Source: Bacteroidia bacterium
GTDB taxonomy: Bacteria > Bacteroidota > Bacteroidia > Chitinophagales > Chitinophagaceae
DNA length: 64,000 bases
Direction of reading: 5' to 3'
Assembly (NCBI GenBank): GCA_030427635.1
Contig: JAUIBA010000016.1
Span: 1 to 64,000 of the forward strand
A model generated the notes under the pieces. The model was not told the DNA's origin, searched no databases, and saw only the letters and a program-made list of their open reading frames with translations. The position numbers and the translations under genes are program-made. Below are positions 16,646 to 56,338 of this stretch, piece after piece (the stretch's first letter is position 1; every line of letters starts with the position of its first letter).

Positions 16646-17149
16646 TCAGGCTTCATTATTACGGATACGCCTAAGTTCATTGATATCATTCATGTCTTTT
16701 TCGCGTGCAATTGCCAGCTTGTTTTCAATCAGATCATCAAAACCAATAAAATATATATCTACATCGTCAACTGTTGTCAATTCTCTCCTTTCATAACATT
16801 TTTTGAATCTTGGGAGTCCTGGTAATTCAGGGAGAAAGTCAATTGTGAAGTTTTCGAAATTCAGCTTGAAAAATGACTTTCGTGGGTTGGGTGTTTTTTC
16901 GTTTTTGAAGTCAGTAATATCTTGTCCGAGACTCTCAATCACATTGAGCAGATTAAAATAGTTCTTATAGGTGGGGTTATACCAGAAATCAAGGTCTGGT
17001 ATTTCAGAGATTTTCCCTGAAATCGATATGGACATTCTGAAATACCCATACAGGGCTACAGCTGTACCTCCTACTACCATGTATTCAACATGGTGTTTGT
17101 TTAGCAGATTACATACGTTGGTTAAGCTATTCCGCAGATTGGGATGCAT
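16646..17149 (-). CDS. MNT-fold nucleotidyltransferase-like protein (AbiEii/toxin-like)
   Basis: A 167-residue protein of the minimal nucleotidyltransferase fold. The motifs can be read in order: VVGGTAVALYGY (the GS/GG motif that holds the nucleotide triphosphate), PDLDFWY (the D-x-D metal pair) and FTIDFLPE (third acidic residue). The C-terminus has FDDLIENKLAIAREKDMNDINELRRI, typical of the AbiEii/DUF6036 group, where a K-x-R-x-K-D helix closes the site. Such proteins act as toxins that modify tRNA ends in type IV or AbiE systems, or as parts of HEPN-MNT pairs. ATG 17149 is preferred; a GTG at 17170 is possible. The gene overlaps the small upstream gene by 23 bases and is AT-rich relative to its neighbours, hinting at transfer. 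Confidence 0.7.
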   Translation of the reverse strand: MHPNLRNSLTNVCNLLNKHHVEYMVVGGTAVALYGYFRMSISISGKISEIPDLDFWYNPTYKNYFNLLNVIESLGQDITDFKNEKTPNPRKSFFKLNFENFTIDFLPELPGLPRFKKCYERRELTTVDDVDIYFIGFDDLIENKLAIAREKDMNDINELRRIRNNEA

Positions 17150-17324
17150 TGCCGGTCGTTTTTTTACCACGCAGCTTGCGCCTGCTTTTTTTTGCAGTAA
17201 GCGATGATTGCAAAACAGATATTACCTGCTTGTATTCAGAATAGGCAGCGTCATCCGTAGGTTCTGATACGGCGTTAGCTGACTTCAGGTCTTGATAGCT
17301 ATTATATTTGCTCACTTTTGTCAT
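17127..17324 (-). CDS. 65-residue partner of the nucleotidyltransferase
   Basis: Small hydrophilic protein (MTKVSKYNSYQDLKS at the start) with a central helix (YSEYKQVISVLQSSL) and a basic block (KKSRRKLRGKK) followed by an unstructured end. It belongs to no family I recognise. It is translated just ahead of the nucleotidyltransferase gene, its last 23 bases overlapping that start, so the two are translationally coupled. In a toxin-antitoxin reading this would be the antitoxin or a nucleic-acid-binding accessory; this rests on position and size only. A -7 promoter element lies about 45 bases upstream. Confidence 0.55.
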   Translation of the reverse strand: MTKVSKYNSYQDLKSANAVSEPTDDAAYSEYKQVISVLQSSLTAKKSRRKLRGKKTTGNASQSAE

Positions 17325-18288: not shown

Positions 18289-18340
18289 GTACTCGCTTGC
18301 AACCAGTACCCCACGGCATCGCGTTTGCAACGAGCCTTTC
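18289..18340. repeat. REP-like palindromic element, copy B
   Basis: GTACTCGCTTGCAACCAGTA then CCCCACGGCATCGCGTTTGC and AACGAGCC. Same two-part layout as copy C; the first palindrome is degraded here. Confidence 0.65.
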
Positions 18341-19972: not shown

Positions 19973-20671
19973 TTAATACACTCTGTACCCTGAGAAGAAA
20001 GTAGCTGCGCCAGAGAAATTATATACGAGTACATTACCTGCTATAGGCAATATTCTTACAGTTACCTGATCTCCTGCGTTGCACTTGAAAATACCACTTA
20101 TAGTTGGCGTCATAAAATTGGCTGATGAGTTATTGTTGTCAACGGTGAATTTTGCCACGTTGCCATTCACAAATATTGCCAACCTCACAGTTTGCATGAC
20201 ACAGGTTACAGAAGCATCAAAGTAGTATGTACCTGTTGATGGGCAGGTATAGGTAGAGGCAGAGAAAGCAGACGGGTCATCGAAATCTACAGAGTCAAAT
20301 ATCACTGTTGAATACACTCCGGTAGGTACGGCTTGTCCTGCAGGGTTGATGGCCGATGCCATAAACCCGGTATTATGTGAGTTGTCGGTAGGGGTAAGGC
20401 TTACCCATACCGGCGATGCTGCGGTGCCTGAGTTGTAATAAAAGCCGGGATTGGTACCTGTCACATACACCAGCAACCCCGTAGCCGGTGTCGGCACAGC
20501 ACCGGTATTGGCCACTCTGGGTATTAATAATCCTTTGCTGTCACTCTTTAGTTCCAGTATGGCAGATGCATCAGCTTCGCTGCCATCGTTGGATATGGCC
20601 ATTGATTGTGCAGATGCAGTATGGAAGCAACCAGCTATAATACAGCTGATAAGGAATGTGATATATTTCAT
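19973..20671 (-). CDS. Exported C1q/TNF-like domain protein
   Basis: A 232-residue protein with a signal peptide (MKYITFLISCIIAGCFHTASAQ). A linker common to Bacteroidota surface proteins follows (SAILELKSDSKGLLIPRV, PATGLLVYVTGTNPGFYYNSG). The C-terminal ~130 residues have the pattern of a C1q-like jelly roll: strands around VIFDSVDFDDPSAFS, TYTCPSTGTYYFDASVT, VRLAIFVNGN, FKCNAGDQVTVRIL and the closing FFSGYRVY. Such domains form trimers and usually act in adhesion or display. ATG 20671 is chosen because it begins the signal peptide. It lies next to the marR/Abi-alpha cassette but shows no link with it. Confidence 0.7.
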   Translation of the reverse strand: MKYITFLISCIIAGCFHTASAQSMAISNDGSEADASAILELKSDSKGLLIPRVANTGAVPTPATGLLVYVTGTNPGFYYNSGTAASPVWVSLTPTDNSHNTGFMASAINPAGQAVPTGVYSTVIFDSVDFDDPSAFSASTYTCPSTGTYYFDASVTCVMQTVRLAIFVNGNVAKFTVDNNNSSANFMTPTISGIFKCNAGDQVTVRILPIAGNVLVYNFSGAATFFSGYRVY

Positions 20672-20782
20672 ATTGTGTATAATGTTGTTGTGACTTCTGC
20701 TAAAATAGCACATGTTTTATTTTGAGCATATACTCTTGTGTGATATTTAATCAAATTTAATTTAGTTGTATGCAGGATGTAT

Positions 20783-20892
20783 TCACCCACCTATCTTCTC
20801 ACTTATTATCTGCTCCAGTGGGGTGTGTCGCTCGTTGCTGAACAGGTCAAAGTGGAAATGATCCAGCTTTGCCAGCAGATGTAGTAATATGT
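20783..20892 (-). pseudogene. Duplicated 3' end of the marR gene (left boundary of the Abi-alpha cassette)
   Basis: This 110-base segment repeats 21951-22060, the 3' end of the intact marR gene, with five substitutions by eye. Read on the minus strand it encodes ILLHLLAKLDHFHFDL then FSNERHTPLEQIISEKIGG and the same TGA, identical to MarR. All five base changes are synonymous (Gly GGG/GGA, Asp GAT/GAC, Ala GCA/GCT, Leu TTA/CTT counting two). It has no marR promoter or N-terminus, so it is a gene-end remnant. The offset between copies is exactly 1168 bases, and the Abi-alpha gene sits between them. Confidence 0.85.
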
Positions 20893-20924
20893 CCCTAAAA
20901 CCGCAAACGAAACGCCCAGATTTA

Positions 20925-21662
20925 CTAATATTTGTTTGGATTGTCGGGCTCTCTTTTCTCGCTTTGAGCTTCAATGTTTAGGCTACAACAATCCAAAAAC
21001 TCACGCCCGAATACCGTCAGCTTATACCTCATTCTTATTGTGGCTGATGTCGCGGGTGAGAAAAAATTCGTGCGAACATGGTATTCCGCCGGATATAAGT
21101 ACGAACCTTTTCTGCTTGGGGGAATCAGAACGTCAAATATGGATTCTATCAGCCCCAACCTGATTAAATTCTGGCGGATAGAAACAATATTTTTTGTCAT
21201 AGGAAATTGATTGAGCAAATGTTCAGTTGTGAAATTTGTACCCAGTTCAGAAATGTACTCCAGTATCCTATACTCCTCCAGAGACATCTGTGACAAAATA
21301 TTGGGGTAAACATTTGTAGTAAAATTCTTTTCGGAATCTACATAGTTAATCAACATCGCATCCCATTTTTCTTTAAGCCCCTCCTCTTCCTCGAGAGAAG
21401 AATGCTCCAAAAGAGGAACGAGATTCTTAAGAGCTACCTTCTTTGTTTTTAAGCCCTTAGCTTTGATATACTCGTCTGCTTTTATCAGAATGTTAACCTG
21501 CCTACGGAAGCGCCACTCTCGCACGCTGTCCATTATCGCAGCCCCAACCTCATCCGCAGATGGCCCAATTATCGTTTTAAGAAAGCCACCCGCCTTAACC
21601 GCGGCTATTACCTCAACTCCCGCTGTCCCCAAATTCGCCAGATCAGTAGGATTAATTTCCAT
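20925..21662 (-). CDS. Abi-alpha-type (DUF4393-like) protein, candidate phage-defence gene
   Basis: A 245-residue protein. The N-terminal part GGFLKTIIGPSADEVGAAIMDSVREWRFRRQVNILIKADEYI followed by LVPLLEHSSLEEEEGLKEKWDAMLINYVDS matches the Abi-alpha/DUF4393 pattern: a small hydrophobic segment, a D-x-V-R-x-W-R helix, the E-x-A-S-x-E-x-x-x-L-x-x-x-W stretch and a later helical domain. The C-terminal half (LSQMSLEEYRILEYISELGTNFT) resembles a winged-helix region. The family is annotated from abortive-infection contexts; its mechanism is not known. ATG 21662 is preferred, 16 bases after a -7 element. It stands alone between two copies of a marR 3' end and has lower GC than its neighbours, consistent with recent arrival. 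Confidence 0.65.
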   Translation of the reverse strand: MEINPTDLANLGTAGVEVIAAVKAGGFLKTIIGPSADEVGAAIMDSVREWRFRRQVNILIKADEYIKAKGLKTKKVALKNLVPLLEHSSLEEEEGLKEKWDAMLINYVDSEKNFTTNVYPNILSQMSLEEYRILEYISELGTNFTTEHLLNQFPMTKNIVSIRQNLIRLGLIESIFDVLIPPSRKGSYLYPAEYHVRTNFFSPATSATIRMRYKLTVFGREFLDCCSLNIEAQSEKREPDNPNKY

Positions 21663-21678
21663 AGTATTTAATTTCTTA

Positions 21679-21686
21679 CAAAGATA
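21679..21686 (-). promoter_or_regulatory. -7 promoter element of the Abi-alpha gene (TATCTTTG)
   Basis: TAnnTTTG on the minus strand, 16 bases before ATG 21662. It shows that the cassette carries its own promoter. Confidence 0.5.
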
Positions 21687-21728
21687 CCCGTTACATATCA
21701 ACGGCAACTATACTATGGACACAAAAAC

Positions 21729-21771
21729 AAACCCCGATTTAAACACCTTTCAAAGCGCTTTAGTCGGGTTT
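21729..21771 (-). terminator. Likely terminator downstream of marR, inside the cassette
   Basis: Imperfect inverted repeat (AAACCCCGATTTAAA, 21729-21743, with TTTAGTCGGGTTT, 21759-21771). On the minus strand it is followed by GTTTTTG, so it would separate marR transcription from the Abi-alpha gene. Confidence 0.5.
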
Positions 21772-21798
21772 AGGAATTGGAGCAACCATACCCAACTG

Positions 21799-21850
21799 GT
21801 ACTCGTTTATAACGAGTACCCCACGGCACGGCGTATTGCAACGCGCCTCC
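21799..21850. repeat. REP-like palindromic element, copy C
   Basis: TACTCGTT-TAT-AACGAGTA within a perfect 9-bp-arm palindrome (21799-21819), then CCCCACGGCACGGCGTATTG and CAACGCGCC. It lies inside the 1.17 kb Abi-alpha cassette. Confidence 0.7.
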
Positions 21851-21950
21851 TTGCTATATACTTCCGTTCTTGGCAGTTCTCCCGTAGAGTAAGCACCGGC
21901 ATCAAGGTACAAATGCATCGTAAATATGGCCAATTGGGCTGCCGCATACC

Positions 21951-22628
21951 TCATCCACCTATCTTCTCACTTATTATCTGCTCCAGTGGGGTGTGTCGCT
22001 CGTTGCTGAACAGGTCAAAGTGGAAATGGTCCAGCTTAGCCAGCAGATGTAGAAGTATGTTCTTTTCGTCATTGTTCAGTGGTCCCGCCATCACTGCCGA
22101 TACCTGAGCCATCTTGTCCAGTACAGCAAAGATGACTCCACGGCCTGCCGGCGTTATCATAACCCGCTGGCTGCGTTTATCGTGCTCGTCATCGCGTTGC
22201 TCCATAAGGCCCAGCCTTATCTGCCTTTTTATGATTTCCATGCCCGTTGTTTTTTCGTGCGCATTCTTGTTTATCAGTTCCGTTTTTGAGAGGCTGTCAT
22301 GTGTCAGCAGTACTATCAGGTAAGAGAAATCGTCTATGGTCTGCAGTGGGCTGCCTTCCAGTGCCTGTTTTACATATAGTTTGGCATAGCGGTACAGATA
22401 GGCCACCAGTATAGCTATAGATTCATCTTTCTTATTACCACGGCCCAGTTTTTCTTTATCCACCTGTCCAGCTACATTCCGGCGTTCCAGTGGCGATTCC
22501 GTACTCCGTTTTTCCAGCTCATGGTCTATGAATCCCCTGTAGTTTATATCAGCTCCCGGGCCTGCCGTGTCTTCATATACCGACAGGGCATCCAGAAAGT
22601 CTTTGATAATATCATAGCGTCCGCTCAT
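21951..22628 (-). CDS. MarR-type winged-helix regulator
   Basis: A 225-residue regulator. The N-terminal third is helical and charged. The winged helix spans about residues 100-190 (DDFSYLIVLLTHDSLSKTELINKNAHEKTTGMEIIKRQIRLGLMEQRDDEHDKRSQRVMITPAGRGVIFAVL), including the wing with D-D-x-x-x-K-R-S-Q and the closing T-P-A-G-R motif. The last 36 residues form the dimer helix and are duplicated at 20783-20892. It is transcribed away from the TonB receptor gene, with two operator-like sites in the shared 89-base interval, so it probably controls both itself and the receptor. The ligand is unknown. Confidence 0.85.
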   Translation of the reverse strand: MSGRYDIIKDFLDALSVYEDTAGPGADINYRGFIDHELEKRSTESPLERRNVAGQVDKEKLGRGNKKDESIAILVAYLYRYAKLYVKQALEGSPLQTIDDFSYLIVLLTHDSLSKTELINKNAHEKTTGMEIIKRQIRLGLMEQRDDEHDKRSQRVMITPAGRGVIFAVLDKMAQVSAVMAGPLNNDEKNILLHLLAKLDHFHFDLFSNERHTPLEQIISEKIGG

Positions 22629-53120: not shown

Positions 53121-53218
53121 TATCTTACCTGTATGGACGGTGGGTGGTACCGGGTAATGCTTCATGTTCGTGCCTATGATTTGTATGCATCACCATGAAG
53201 GGCGCTAAGCGTGCTGTA

Positions 53219-53435
53219 ACGACCACCCCAGACGGCAAAAGCGCACGTCTTTTTGTACCTGCCGCAGGCAGGCCATCCCGCTCCTTCCGCCGCGGCGAGA
53301 CAAGTGCCAGGAGGAGCGCTTGCCCATATTATGTGGGTGTATGGATAGTGGTATAAGCAGGGCTTTTTTATTGCGTCAGTTATAAACTAACCGAACAGAG
53401 TGAGTCGTGGGCAGGTTATACTTCAAGTCTGTATC
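53219..53435 (+). repeat. Composite intergenic repeat, copy 1 (both modules)
   Basis: Left GC-rich module (53219-53333) with CCAGACGGCAAAAGCG, GCAGGCAGGCC and CCGCCGCGGCGAGACAAGTG; right module (53367-53435) with TTATTGCGTCAGTTATAAAC. Copy 2 (54588) shares both modules in the same order. Part of the 335-base gap after the flavoenzyme gene. Confidence 0.75.
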
Positions 53436-53455
53436 AGTGGGTTTAAATATGTGTT

Positions 53456-54337
53456 TTATAACAGGTTTTCATCGGGGTGGGAAGTTTTATTTTTTTGTTG
53501 CTGCTCTTTTTCTTTCAATATGCGTAAGTGCTTGTTTAGCATTTCTTTAAAAGGTAAATCATCGTCGGGGACGGGGAGATTACTTCCCGAAAAGTTCGCA
53601 AAAATTGCTCGCGATATTTTTTTAATGTCTGGTTTCTTTGTGGCGGGTTCCGGTGTGCTTTCTTTATCTGTATCAGGGGCATGTGATGGGGGCGGTGGTG
53701 CTGAGGGTTGTTCTTTTGCATCATCATGGATGGGTGGCGGTGGGGTGTCCGGTTTCGGCTCTTTTGTGTCAGCAACGGGGTCATCGGGTGGGGCGGGGTT
53801 ACGGGCTTCCTCTTCATCTTTCCAGCCTTCCATTGCTTCATCGAATGGGGAAGGTATGAAGCCATTTTTATCGAACTCTGAGGTGAGGAAGCTGTGCTGA
53901 TGATAGGGCTGATAGTCGTAAACCATATCATCTACTATGGTGCGGGCTTCATCGGCCAGATGGGGAGCGCGATGGGTGAGTTGCTCCATAAAGGAGTTAG
54001 CCAGCTGCATGTACTCGCTGCCTGAGCAGCGTTTGCTGAGTCTGCTGATAGATGTAGTGAGCTGATGGATAACCTGTGTCTGGTCTTTAGTGATGCTGAC
54101 GGCGGAGTAATAATCGCCCAGCCTATCACTAACATATAAGTTGAGCAGGTGATAACATTTGTCCATAATAAGGATAGGCATGTTGCGGACGGAGCGGCGT
54201 AGCTGGTCCCAGTTGCCCTGCTGCGCCCATGAGGTGATAGTGCGGCGGCTAACGCCTACTTCATTGGCAATGGCGGTCTTGGTGAGTGAGGACTGGAAGT
54301 ATAGTTCTTCGGCCTGCTGGCGTTGGTTTGTTTTCAT
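53456..54337 (-). CDS. Phage-terminase-small-subunit-like HTH protein
   Basis: A 293-residue protein. The N-terminal helix-turn-helix (LTKTAIANEVGVSRRTITSWAQQGNWDQLRRS, ~18-50) followed by a helical stretch (DKCYHLLNLYVSDRLGDYYSAVSITKDQTQVIHQLTTSISRLSKR) matches the start of small terminase subunits, which bind the packaging site of phage DNA. Instead of an oligomerisation domain there is a long Pro/Asp/Glu/Lys-rich linker (~185-245) and a short end domain (ISRAIFANFSGSNLPVPDDDLPFKEMLNKHL). No large subunit, portal or capsid gene is near, so it is an orphan, perhaps domesticated. It lies exactly between two copies of the composite repeat and is otherwise isolated. Confidence 0.6.
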   Translation of the reverse strand: MKTNQRQQAEELYFQSSLTKTAIANEVGVSRRTITSWAQQGNWDQLRRSVRNMPILIMDKCYHLLNLYVSDRLGDYYSAVSITKDQTQVIHQLTTSISRLSKRCSGSEYMQLANSFMEQLTHRAPHLADEARTIVDDMVYDYQPYHQHSFLTSEFDKNGFIPSPFDEAMEGWKDEEEARNPAPPDDPVADTKEPKPDTPPPPIHDDAKEQPSAPPPPSHAPDTDKESTPEPATKKPDIKKISRAIFANFSGSNLPVPDDDLPFKEMLNKHLRILKEKEQQQKNKTSHPDENLL

Positions 54338-54587
54338 GTTCAGTGGGTTTAGGTTTATGTTTTTGGGTGTAAAGTTGGGGCTGTTGTATCAGTAGCGGAA
54401 ATTGGGTTGCTGTGATATGCCGCTATTTGCATATGGTATGCATTATGGTGCATATGATGTAAAATAGTTTGCAGTGTGGGCGCGGGTTTCGGTGTGTTTT
54501 GTTTTTCTAACCACAAGGGGTACAAGGGTTTCACAAAGTGGATATGTGTGGGATTTTACTGTAGGAAAGGACACAAGTGTGTGGTGT

Positions 54588-54816
54588 TGCGACCTCCCCA
54601 GGCGGCAAAAAGGACATGCCTTTTTGTGCCTACCTGCGGCAGGCAGGCCGCTCCTTCCGCCGCGGCGAGACAAGTGCCTGGAGGGGAGTTTCCCCTGATT
54701 TGTGAGTGGCAATGTGGGATTCTGATTTTTATTGCGTCAGTTATAAACTGACGAGACTAAGTGAGGCACGAGTTGGCTAAGCTTCAGGGCTACGCGCCAA
54801 ATTCTCGCCAGTGTGA
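54588..54816 (+). repeat. Composite intergenic repeat, copy 2 (both modules)
   Basis: Left module 54588-54710 (CCAGGCGGCAAAAAGGACAT, CCTGCGGCAGGCAGGCCG, CCGCCGCGGCGAGACAAGTG), right module 54726-54816 with the palindrome CGTCAGTT-ATA-AACTGACG and the tail GTGAGGCACGAG...CGCGCCAA...CTCGCCAGTGT. The whole 707-base gap 54338-55044 contains only this, a hairpin at 54871 and A/C-rich filler. Confidence 0.8.
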
Positions 54817-54870
54817 GGGGGTAATGTAAGGAGGGGGCACAAGGGTGTGACGTGATATGCCCATGGGCTG

Positions 54871-54894
54871 GTTGCAGGCGGGGACGCCTGCAAC
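54871..54894. repeat. Short perfect GC-rich hairpin
   Basis: GTTGCAGGCG-GGGA-CGCCTGCAAC, 10-bp arms, 55 bases after composite repeat copy 2. The arms and loop resemble a REP element; no second copy was found in the window, though CGTCCCCGCC at 16530-16545 is similar. Confidence 0.6.
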
Positions 54895-55044
54895 GGCGGA
54901 AGTTGTGCTTCGTATCAGCATCCCAGACCTACGTCAGTGGGTATAAAGGTGGAATTATTGTATTTTTAATTTCGATGGTATTGGAACATGTACTAAATAT
55001 ATTCAGAGACGTTTTGAGCGTGCGTTAAACTGAATAATTATTTT

Positions 55045-55701
55045 ATGAAAAACAGGATTTGGATATTATTGTTAGTGATGTGGCTTGCATCCTCATGCAA
55101 TAACTATAGTGCATTTCCCATAGACGATGAACCTAAAATCAGCGTACAAAACTCTTTGCCCGGGATATGGAAGGTGCTAAATGATACAAATGCAAAAGAT
55201 TACATTCTGGTGCAGAACAATGAGGATGTATATGGAGGTAATGAGCTGAATTATCGCCATAGTGAGGATTTAAAAGACGTTTGGAAAATTTACCTTGAAA
55301 AGAAGGAAAACCGCAAGTCTGCTTATTATGTGACAAGGATGAATCTTGGTGGTAAGAATGCACAATACAGGCAATGGGGAGGGTTTATGTCTGTGGTTAA
55401 CGAAGATATGTTTTTGAATATTTATTATGCCAATACTGTTTCTTTAGCTGATAAGGATTCTAAATCAAAATATGGGTATTTGCTGGTTCGTATTATTGGG
55501 TTCTCTGCCCATCGTGATACCGTAAGTATCTCTGTTGTGTCTGATGAAACATTGAAATATCTGAAGAGTGCAAAAGATGTAAGGCAGAGGGTTAAGAGCA
55601 GACTTAATGATCCGGGATTTTATGGAGATACGATGCAACTGTATAAAGTGAGTGACTATCATAGCTCTTTGAATGGGTCTATAGATGTTGCTAACAAATA
55701 A
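55045..55701 (+). CDS. Lipoprotein of unknown function
   Basis: A 218-residue protein with a lipoprotein signal (MKNRIWILLLVMWLASSC, Cys at 18). The mature part is hydrophilic and beta-rich (ISVQNSLPGIWKVLNDTNAKDYILVQNNEDVYGGNELNYRHS; KIYLEKKENRKSAYYVTRMNLGG; YGYLLVRIIGFSAHRDTVSISVVSDETLKYLKS). It ends with a helix (AKDVRQRVKSRLNDPGFYGDTMQLYKV). It resembles exported lipoproteins often seen as orphans in Bacteroidota; I cannot name a family. It lies between copies 2 and 3 of the composite repeat. Confidence 0.7.
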   Translation: MKNRIWILLLVMWLASSCNNYSAFPIDDEPKISVQNSLPGIWKVLNDTNAKDYILVQNNEDVYGGNELNYRHSEDLKDVWKIYLEKKENRKSAYYVTRMNLGGKNAQYRQWGGFMSVVNEDMFLNIYYANTVSLADKDSKSKYGYLLVRIIGFSAHRDTVSISVVSDETLKYLKSAKDVRQRVKSRLNDPGFYGDTMQLYKVSDYHSSLNGSIDVANK

Positions 55702-55726
55702 TAGGTATCATCACATCTCTGCTCAT

Positions 55727-55812
55727 ATATTGCGTCAGTTATAAACTGACGAGATTAAGTGAGGCACGAGCAGGCTGTGCTTCATGGTTACGCGCCAAAC
55801 TCGCCAGTGTAG
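55727..55812 (+). repeat. Composite intergenic repeat, copy 3 (right module only)
   Basis: ATTGCGTCAGTTATAAACTG then ACGAGATTAAGTGAGGCACG, ending CGCGCCAAACTCGCCAGTGT. The 8-bp palindrome arms are intact. It starts 26 bases after the stop of the lipoprotein gene. Confidence 0.85.
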
Positions 55813-55871
55813 TAAAAGTTTAGTTTAAACATTAAATGGTTTAGAAAAACCAGTAGAATAGATAAACTATT

Positions 55872-56138
55872 ATGGAAAAATATTGTTGCGACAAATTTCA
55901 GTTTCGCTACTCTGGAGAGAAGACAATGGGATTAAATATTAGAATAATAGGTTATGGTAAATCCTTTCAAGAAAGGGCTCAGCTGAATATTGATAGAAAT
56001 TTTATAATTACTGAAGGATATGCTGGGAAAATCGAAGATTGTGCTAAGAAGGCGATTATAAATTTCTGTCCCTTTTGTGGTACTAATTTGCGTGCCTTTT
56101 ATAAGGATATGAGTTATATACAAGAGATAATGGAATAG
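55872..56138 (+). CDS. Small CPFCG zinc-finger-type protein
   Basis: An 88-residue protein with two Cys pairs: YCCDKFQF near the N-terminus (residues 5-6) and FCPFCGTNL at about 65-70. The second is the classic half of a zinc ribbon, and with the first pair it can bind one zinc. Small proteins with a terminal CPFCG are common in phages and mobile regions, where their role is unknown. The rest is a short alpha/beta stretch (NIRIIGYGKSFQERAQLNIDRNFIITEGYAGKIEDCAKKAIINF). ATG 55872 is the only good start. It lies between repeat copies 3 and 4. Confidence 0.65.
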   Translation: MEKYCCDKFQFRYSGEKTMGLNIRIIGYGKSFQERAQLNIDRNFIITEGYAGKIEDCAKKAIINFCPFCGTNLRAFYKDMSYIQEIME

Positions 56139-56200
56139 ACGATAACGGATTGACGTGACGTCCCCCCACTTTTCGGACATGGCTAAACTGGTGAAACGGA

Positions 56201-56338
56201 ATTTATGAGTTTTTATTCTTATTGTGTGGGTTTTAGAGATAGGGTAATTATTGATTTTATTATGCCGGTTATAAATTGACGAGATTAGTGCGTTACGGGC
56301 TGACTGTGCTACATGGTTACGCACAATGCTATGTGCCT
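56201..56338 (+). repeat. Composite intergenic repeat, copy 4 (degraded)
   Basis: TTATTGTGTGGGTTTTAGAG (compare TTATTGTGTAGGTTTCAGAG in copy 5), then TTATTATGCCGGTTATAAAT, TGACGAGATTAGTG, GGCTGACTGTGCTACATGGT. The palindrome is partly lost. It fills much of the 371-base gap before the next gene; I see nothing else there. Confidence 0.65.

Follow-up and report, generated by a model that had tools for sequence, protein, structure and literature searches.

The analyzed window, a 64,000-nucleotide stretch of a Bacteroidia genome, contains a single Abi_alpha-family gene enclosed by two copies of the 3' end of a marR-type gene. A repeat search and codon comparison revealed a 110-nt sequence in two direct copies (20783-20892 and 21951-22060, both on the minus strand), 95% identical and spaced by 1168 bases, which reproduced the repeat and the offset given in the original prediction. 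The proximal copy (21951-22060) comprises the final 110 bases, TGA included, of an intact MarR-type regulator gene of 225 aa (21951-22628, minus strand). This gene, the upstream boundary of the islet, was assigned from its ORF, Pfam and genus synteny; its protein matched HTH_27 above the cut-off (E 4.3e-5) and MarR_2 below it. Along the minus strand, marR (22628-21951) is followed by a leader of 288 bases, the Abi_alpha gene (21662-20925), a gap of 32 bases (20893-20924) between the Abi stop and the repeat, and the distal copy (20892-20783), which is a marR 3' end that lacks the head and has a TGA of its own. A C1q-domain gene (19973-20713, minus strand; C1q, E 1.2e-8) forms the outer flank. 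We favor, with about an even chance of being right, the reading that DNA of a close relative carrying the Abi_alpha gene recombined into the 3' end of marR and left a recoded gene tail.

Between the marR tails, 5 of 110 bases are different (C/T, T/A, T/A, C/T and A/G), and every difference is synonymous. Both copies encode ILLHLLAKLDHFHFDLFSNERHTPLEQIISEKIGG*, with the stop codon kept in each. In a simulation of 20,000 trials, five random changes were all synonymous at a frequency of 0.0002, or 0.0054 when only transitions were allowed, in support of the earlier proposal that the copies diverged under protein-level selection. By a rough estimate, the chance of the all-synonymous pattern with one copy neutral and the other selected is about 0.01. 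The synonymous-only divergence and the kept stop codons thus suggest that both tails most likely worked as MarR coding sequence while they diverged. On one side, similarity fell to background directly after the TGA, and on the other beyond base 110; the end of the repeat at the stop codon and the five of five synonymous changes argue for insertion. Four of the five changes lie within the first 32 bases (binomial, 0.027), which was not significant in a best-split permutation (0.107). The ancestral state at the five sites was uninformative, both states being present among 11 relatives at the two readable sites. The repeat contained no inverted-repeat core better than expected by chance, as 187 of 200 shuffles scored equally well or better, which counts against the favored reading. 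When positions 20783-22100 were compared with the whole 4.25-Mb genome, they matched themselves and one 49-base piece of a palindrome at 18289-18337. The assembly is a 49-contig draft, which leaves room for an assembly or chance artefact; this is most improbable, as the locus lies about 21 kb inside a 90-kb contig and the copies differ at five sites and carry different flanks.

In the favored reading, the donor would have been a small piece of DNA, probably circular, from a conspecific or very close strain, in which the Abi_alpha gene was joined to a marR 3' end. A single crossover inside the 3' end of marR would give the intact gene a synonymous replacement tail, and the displaced native tail would end up 1.17 kb downstream. 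The Abi gene, read from its own promoter, would then lie between the tails as a one-gene phage-defence islet. The crossover may have been made by an integrase in trans or since lost, leaving a remnant like a cis-mobilizable element (CIME), or by RecA; RecA-driven integration of a tail-carrying circle would give the same structure. Both the lateral arrival and the circular intermediate are parts that we infer. The original prediction had described an insertion at a gene 3' end that restores the frame. The duplicated end, the kept frame and the synonymous-only changes agree with this description.

A tandem duplication of marR is possible, although we consider it unlikely: two full copies would have been under selection for a while, and the second would have lost its front to the Abi gene, leaving only the tail. 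Two working marR copies would explain the synonymous-only divergence as well, and a genome of the family (G036) does carry two marR-type genes 1.4 kb apart on one strand (C32:132302-132919 and C32:134341-134985). Against this, no sequence from the front part of another marR was detected between marR and the fragment, the 110 bases being the only marR remnant, and each of eight syntenic loci in the genus has a single marR match. In addition, the similarity of the proximal copy stops exactly at the stop codon, which a tandem duplication would produce by chance only.

We then compared the marR locus among relatives. We retrieved 16 loci of the genus around a TonB-receptor-type gene, and in 8 of them a single marR match adjoined that gene. 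Behind marR, these eight syntenic loci carried FKBP-type genes (three loci), C1q-like genes (one locus) and, in the rest, genes including those for a long secreted-type protein, a lipoprotein-type protein and others; except for the C1q-like ones, the gene names were given by eye from translations. In genome G160, the C1q-like genes lie directly behind marR without the tail repeat. The tail repeat was absent from all 24 related marR loci (21 in a 29-locus set, made up of the 8 syntenic and 13 others, and 3 from another collection). Two of these, L004 and L010, end at a contig end directly after marR, and the remaining 11 of the 13 non-syntenic loci extend at most 1.5 kb past the match, so that longer cassettes there would escape. 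The absence of the repeat from these loci speaks for the insertion; the closest MarR, at 58% identity, is too distant for a true empty site. This nearest relative (G153) has a C-terminal tail that is, by eye, quite different, which implies that both tails in the window are young relative to the genus and stem from a single lineage or from very close ones. Local recombination or duplication consequently fits as well as an arriving element does. Searches of a contig collection with MarR, in a scan that detects close relatives only, returned three loci at 51-52% identity.

The same observations bear on homologous recombination alone, in the style of a minimal mobile element, with a donor that had a different gene behind marR, the other end joined illegitimately and no mobile element at any stage. 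A close donor is indicated by the high identity of the copies beside the differing tail of the 58% relative, the gene behind marR varies across the eight syntenic loci, and the contig is free of tyrosine integrases, all of which are compatible with such an import. Simple allelic exchange, however, leaves no second tail, and an extra circular or illegitimate step would be required; we regard this explanation as quite unlikely.

No tyrosine integrase was found on the contig; the six PF00589 matches of the genome are all on other contigs. Of the two minus-strand islet ORFs scanned, Abi_alpha alone has a Pfam match, and no recombinase was found within the islet by the PF00589 search and this Pfam scan. 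The absence of an integrase noted earlier was thus borne out for tyrosine integrases on the contig. Help from an integrase in trans is possible; nothing links the six phage-integrase-family matches to the marR site. The GC content of the islet (0.433) was not unusual and indicated nothing foreign: the window mean is 0.461 (SD 0.035), and 143 of 630 sliding windows were as low or lower. Elsewhere in the window, an AT-rich gene pair with 39% GC occupies 16646-17324 on the minus strand. It consists of a nucleotidyltransferase-like gene (DUF6036 above the cut-off, DUF2204 below) and a small upstream ORF with no Pfam match, and is possibly toxin-antitoxin-like.

The cargo gene (20925-21662, minus strand) encodes a protein of 245 aa. 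A Pfam scan, run with the 260-aa ORF at 20925-21707 as query, matched PF14337 with 66.6 bits against a curated cut-off of 29 (E 3.9e-18), which places it in the Abi_alpha family and confirmed that one Abi-alpha-type gene lies between the copies. Abi_alpha is rare: across the order, 15 of 396 genomes carry it, counting this one, and all 14 control genomes lack it. Among relatives in the family, the four strongest were 39-43% identical over the matched part. With PADLOC, the protein partly matched PDC-S47 (E 1.5e-5, over residues 80-138) and, more weakly, Cas5a (E 0.002). The founding member, abi-alpha, belongs to a prophage of Enterococcus faecalis; PMC6356687, in which PF14337 appears as DUF4393, describes that it aborts infection by phages, with lysis occurring prematurely. 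What the two genes have in common is the family match above the cut-off; abi-alpha of E. faecalis sits in a prophage, whereas around the gene in the window no prophage context was seen, and no close homologue was present in the collections searched. Judged by its family, the gene may have a phage-defence role here.

A plasmid, phage or viral origin was considered and rejected. Neither the Abi protein nor the marR tail matched plasmids, phage genomes or viral contigs, the searches with the marR tail including one with the exact degenerate pattern; the Abi protein also had no match in the contig collection, in a scan that detects close relatives only. Abi_alpha was likewise rejected as routine cargo of such cassettes. 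We checked 16 Abi_alpha loci (15 other genomes) for flanking direct repeats, five of them shortened by contig ends (L090, L093, L095, L096 and L097), and none showed a clear cassette. At four of them the gene was flanked by a weak or short pair: L091 (29 bases at a distance of 8.3 kb), L094 (55 bases, 75%), L095 (49 bases, 84%) and L098 (159 bases, 72%). Of these four pairs, that of L095 alone came within the classification limits, and it was located in no gene; L091, L094 and L098 were left out of classification.

The leader between marR and the Abi gene (21663-21950, minus strand) is 288 bases long and was no more similar to marR than expected by chance; a 64-aa ORF in it had no Pfam match. 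As predicted, it holds TATCTTTG, whose first base lies 24 bases ahead of the ATG at 21662 and which we take to be a -7-like box on the strength of the motif TAnnTTTG. This motif occurs in the window at 0.0225 per 60 bases and strand. The Abi gene may thus be read from its own promoter. The leader also contains a double-hairpin palindrome at 21796-21848, composed of GGTACTCGTT-AACGAGTACC followed by a GCGT..ACGC hairpin. The palindrome TACTCGTT-NNN-AACGAGTACCCC was found at three sites in the window (17401, 18290 and 21800), all of which lie between 17.4 and 21.8 kb; with up to 3 mismatches allowed, the 4.25-Mb genome has no other site. The palindrome predicted as REP-like is therefore real; with three sites in 4.25 Mb, it is not a genome-wide REP. 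Related copies are thinly scattered through other genomes of the genus. A separate intergenic repeat family is present at 53211-56322 of the window, with members of 50-200 bases, some beginning with TATTGCGTCAGTTATAAACTGACG, at a spacing of about 0.5-1.4 kb.

A survey covering 1,535,265 distinct bases of the 4.25-Mb genome (1,135,265 plus 460,000, minus 60,000 double-counted) and about 1.0 Mb of other genomes (758,822 and 275,487, with about 20 kb counted twice) examined repeat pairs. In two of its four scans, only pairs of 40-1200 bases, 350-15,000 bases apart and at least 72% identical were listed. Within-gene pairs were dropped, and ORFs were called with a simple greedy caller. In the surveyed part of the own genome, two 3'-end pairs with a headless second copy were detected, those of marR and of a DUF4956 gene, and no 5'-end pair of the same type. 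In five more pairs there, all from one of these scans, just one of the two copies lay in an ORF (C22 18289, which is the palindrome; C1 99035; C37 114391 and 114816; C12 13924). The other genomes yielded no 3' case and one gene start repeated in an intergenic place (G152:C1 127018/127869). From so few cases, no preference for 3' ends can be derived. Other repeats were also seen in this genome (G000). An array at C6:155504-158622, made of units of about 77 bases with a 47-base part identical in the first and last, is, at a guess, probably a CRISPR array. On C37, a 174-aa DUF4402 gene with its upstream region is present in three complete copies at 97586-107142 and in two at 142888-146359, which are 85-93% identical and a few kb apart.

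In the second pair, the last 256 bases of the DUF4956 gene and 7 bases past its stop (C16, 88101-88363) recur 2.7 kb downstream at 85399-85661 with 89% identity; AraC-type and BNR-type genes lie between the copies (L117, G000:C16:80001-100000). Over the last 156 bases the copies differ at 3 sites and over the preceding 100 at 25, so that 25 of the 28 changes fall in the first 100 of 256 bases, a step that none of 2000 permutations equaled. Of the 24 codons that differ, 12 are non-synonymous. Past a 76-base gap, a further collinear piece of 57 bases (72%) was found by two-sequence blastn (E 8e-5); a MAFFT alignment left it unplaced. The gene is sporadic, occurring in 3 of 35 genomes of the genus including this one, and the fragment occurs in this genome only. 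From these patterns, the fragment looks like a decayed longer copy whose 3' part was partly homogenised or recently exchanged, and the repeat may represent either another cassette or a duplicate in decay. Because of this decay, a simple duplicate has to be taken seriously for marR too, and the resemblance to a decayed longer copy counts in favor of the tandem duplication. It is very doubtful that the lineage has a whole class of very small integrase-free gene-tail cassettes, with one or two cargo genes, that would move as circles via RecA or a trans-acting recombinase and always leave the target gene working, the DUF4956 repeat being another member.

If the islet is mobile, it would demonstrate that a promoter, a single gene and about 100 bases of host gene tail suffice for a defence gene to spread. 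Otherwise, it offers a small and clear case of recoding at a gene end or of a decaying gene duplicate, and it is of modest interest unless strain data show movement.

We finally compared the islet with known systems. In diversity-generating retroelements, the differences between the TR and VR copies are adenine-directed; the marR differences (C/T, T/A, T/A, C/T and A/G) do not follow this pattern. Prophage e14 in icd of E. coli K-12 is closer: according to PMC11148124, a 165-bp tail is duplicated there, with 12 changes and two conservative replacements. As in the islet, the 3' end of a protein gene is duplicated beyond the insert with mostly silent changes and an intact frame. The e14 prophage, as described, measures 15 kb and includes a putative integrase gene (PMC11148124, PMC6379469), whereas the islet has one gene and no integrase was found in it. 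Integration at gene 3' ends is described for such elements in general in PMC5704250, which presents a CIME as a decayed ICE or IME that retains attL and attR. Like a CIME of that description, the islet carries its cargo between direct repeats, with a gene end as one of them, and no integration or transfer genes were found among its ORFs, by Pfam on the two minus-strand ORFs or with PF00589. It differs in that neither a parent element nor a dyad core was identified beside the direct repeats, and only 1.06 kb lies between them. The minimal mobile element, in the definition given in PMC3082526, is a whole-gene cassette between chromosomal genes, a definition that does not name a duplicated gene tail. 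The islet shares with it a whole-gene cassette in which no mobility gene was found and the varied content behind the same gene, the latter as seen over eight distant loci. Set beside these systems, the islet is plausibly an unusually small instance of known gene-end recombination, which is the reading we prefer.
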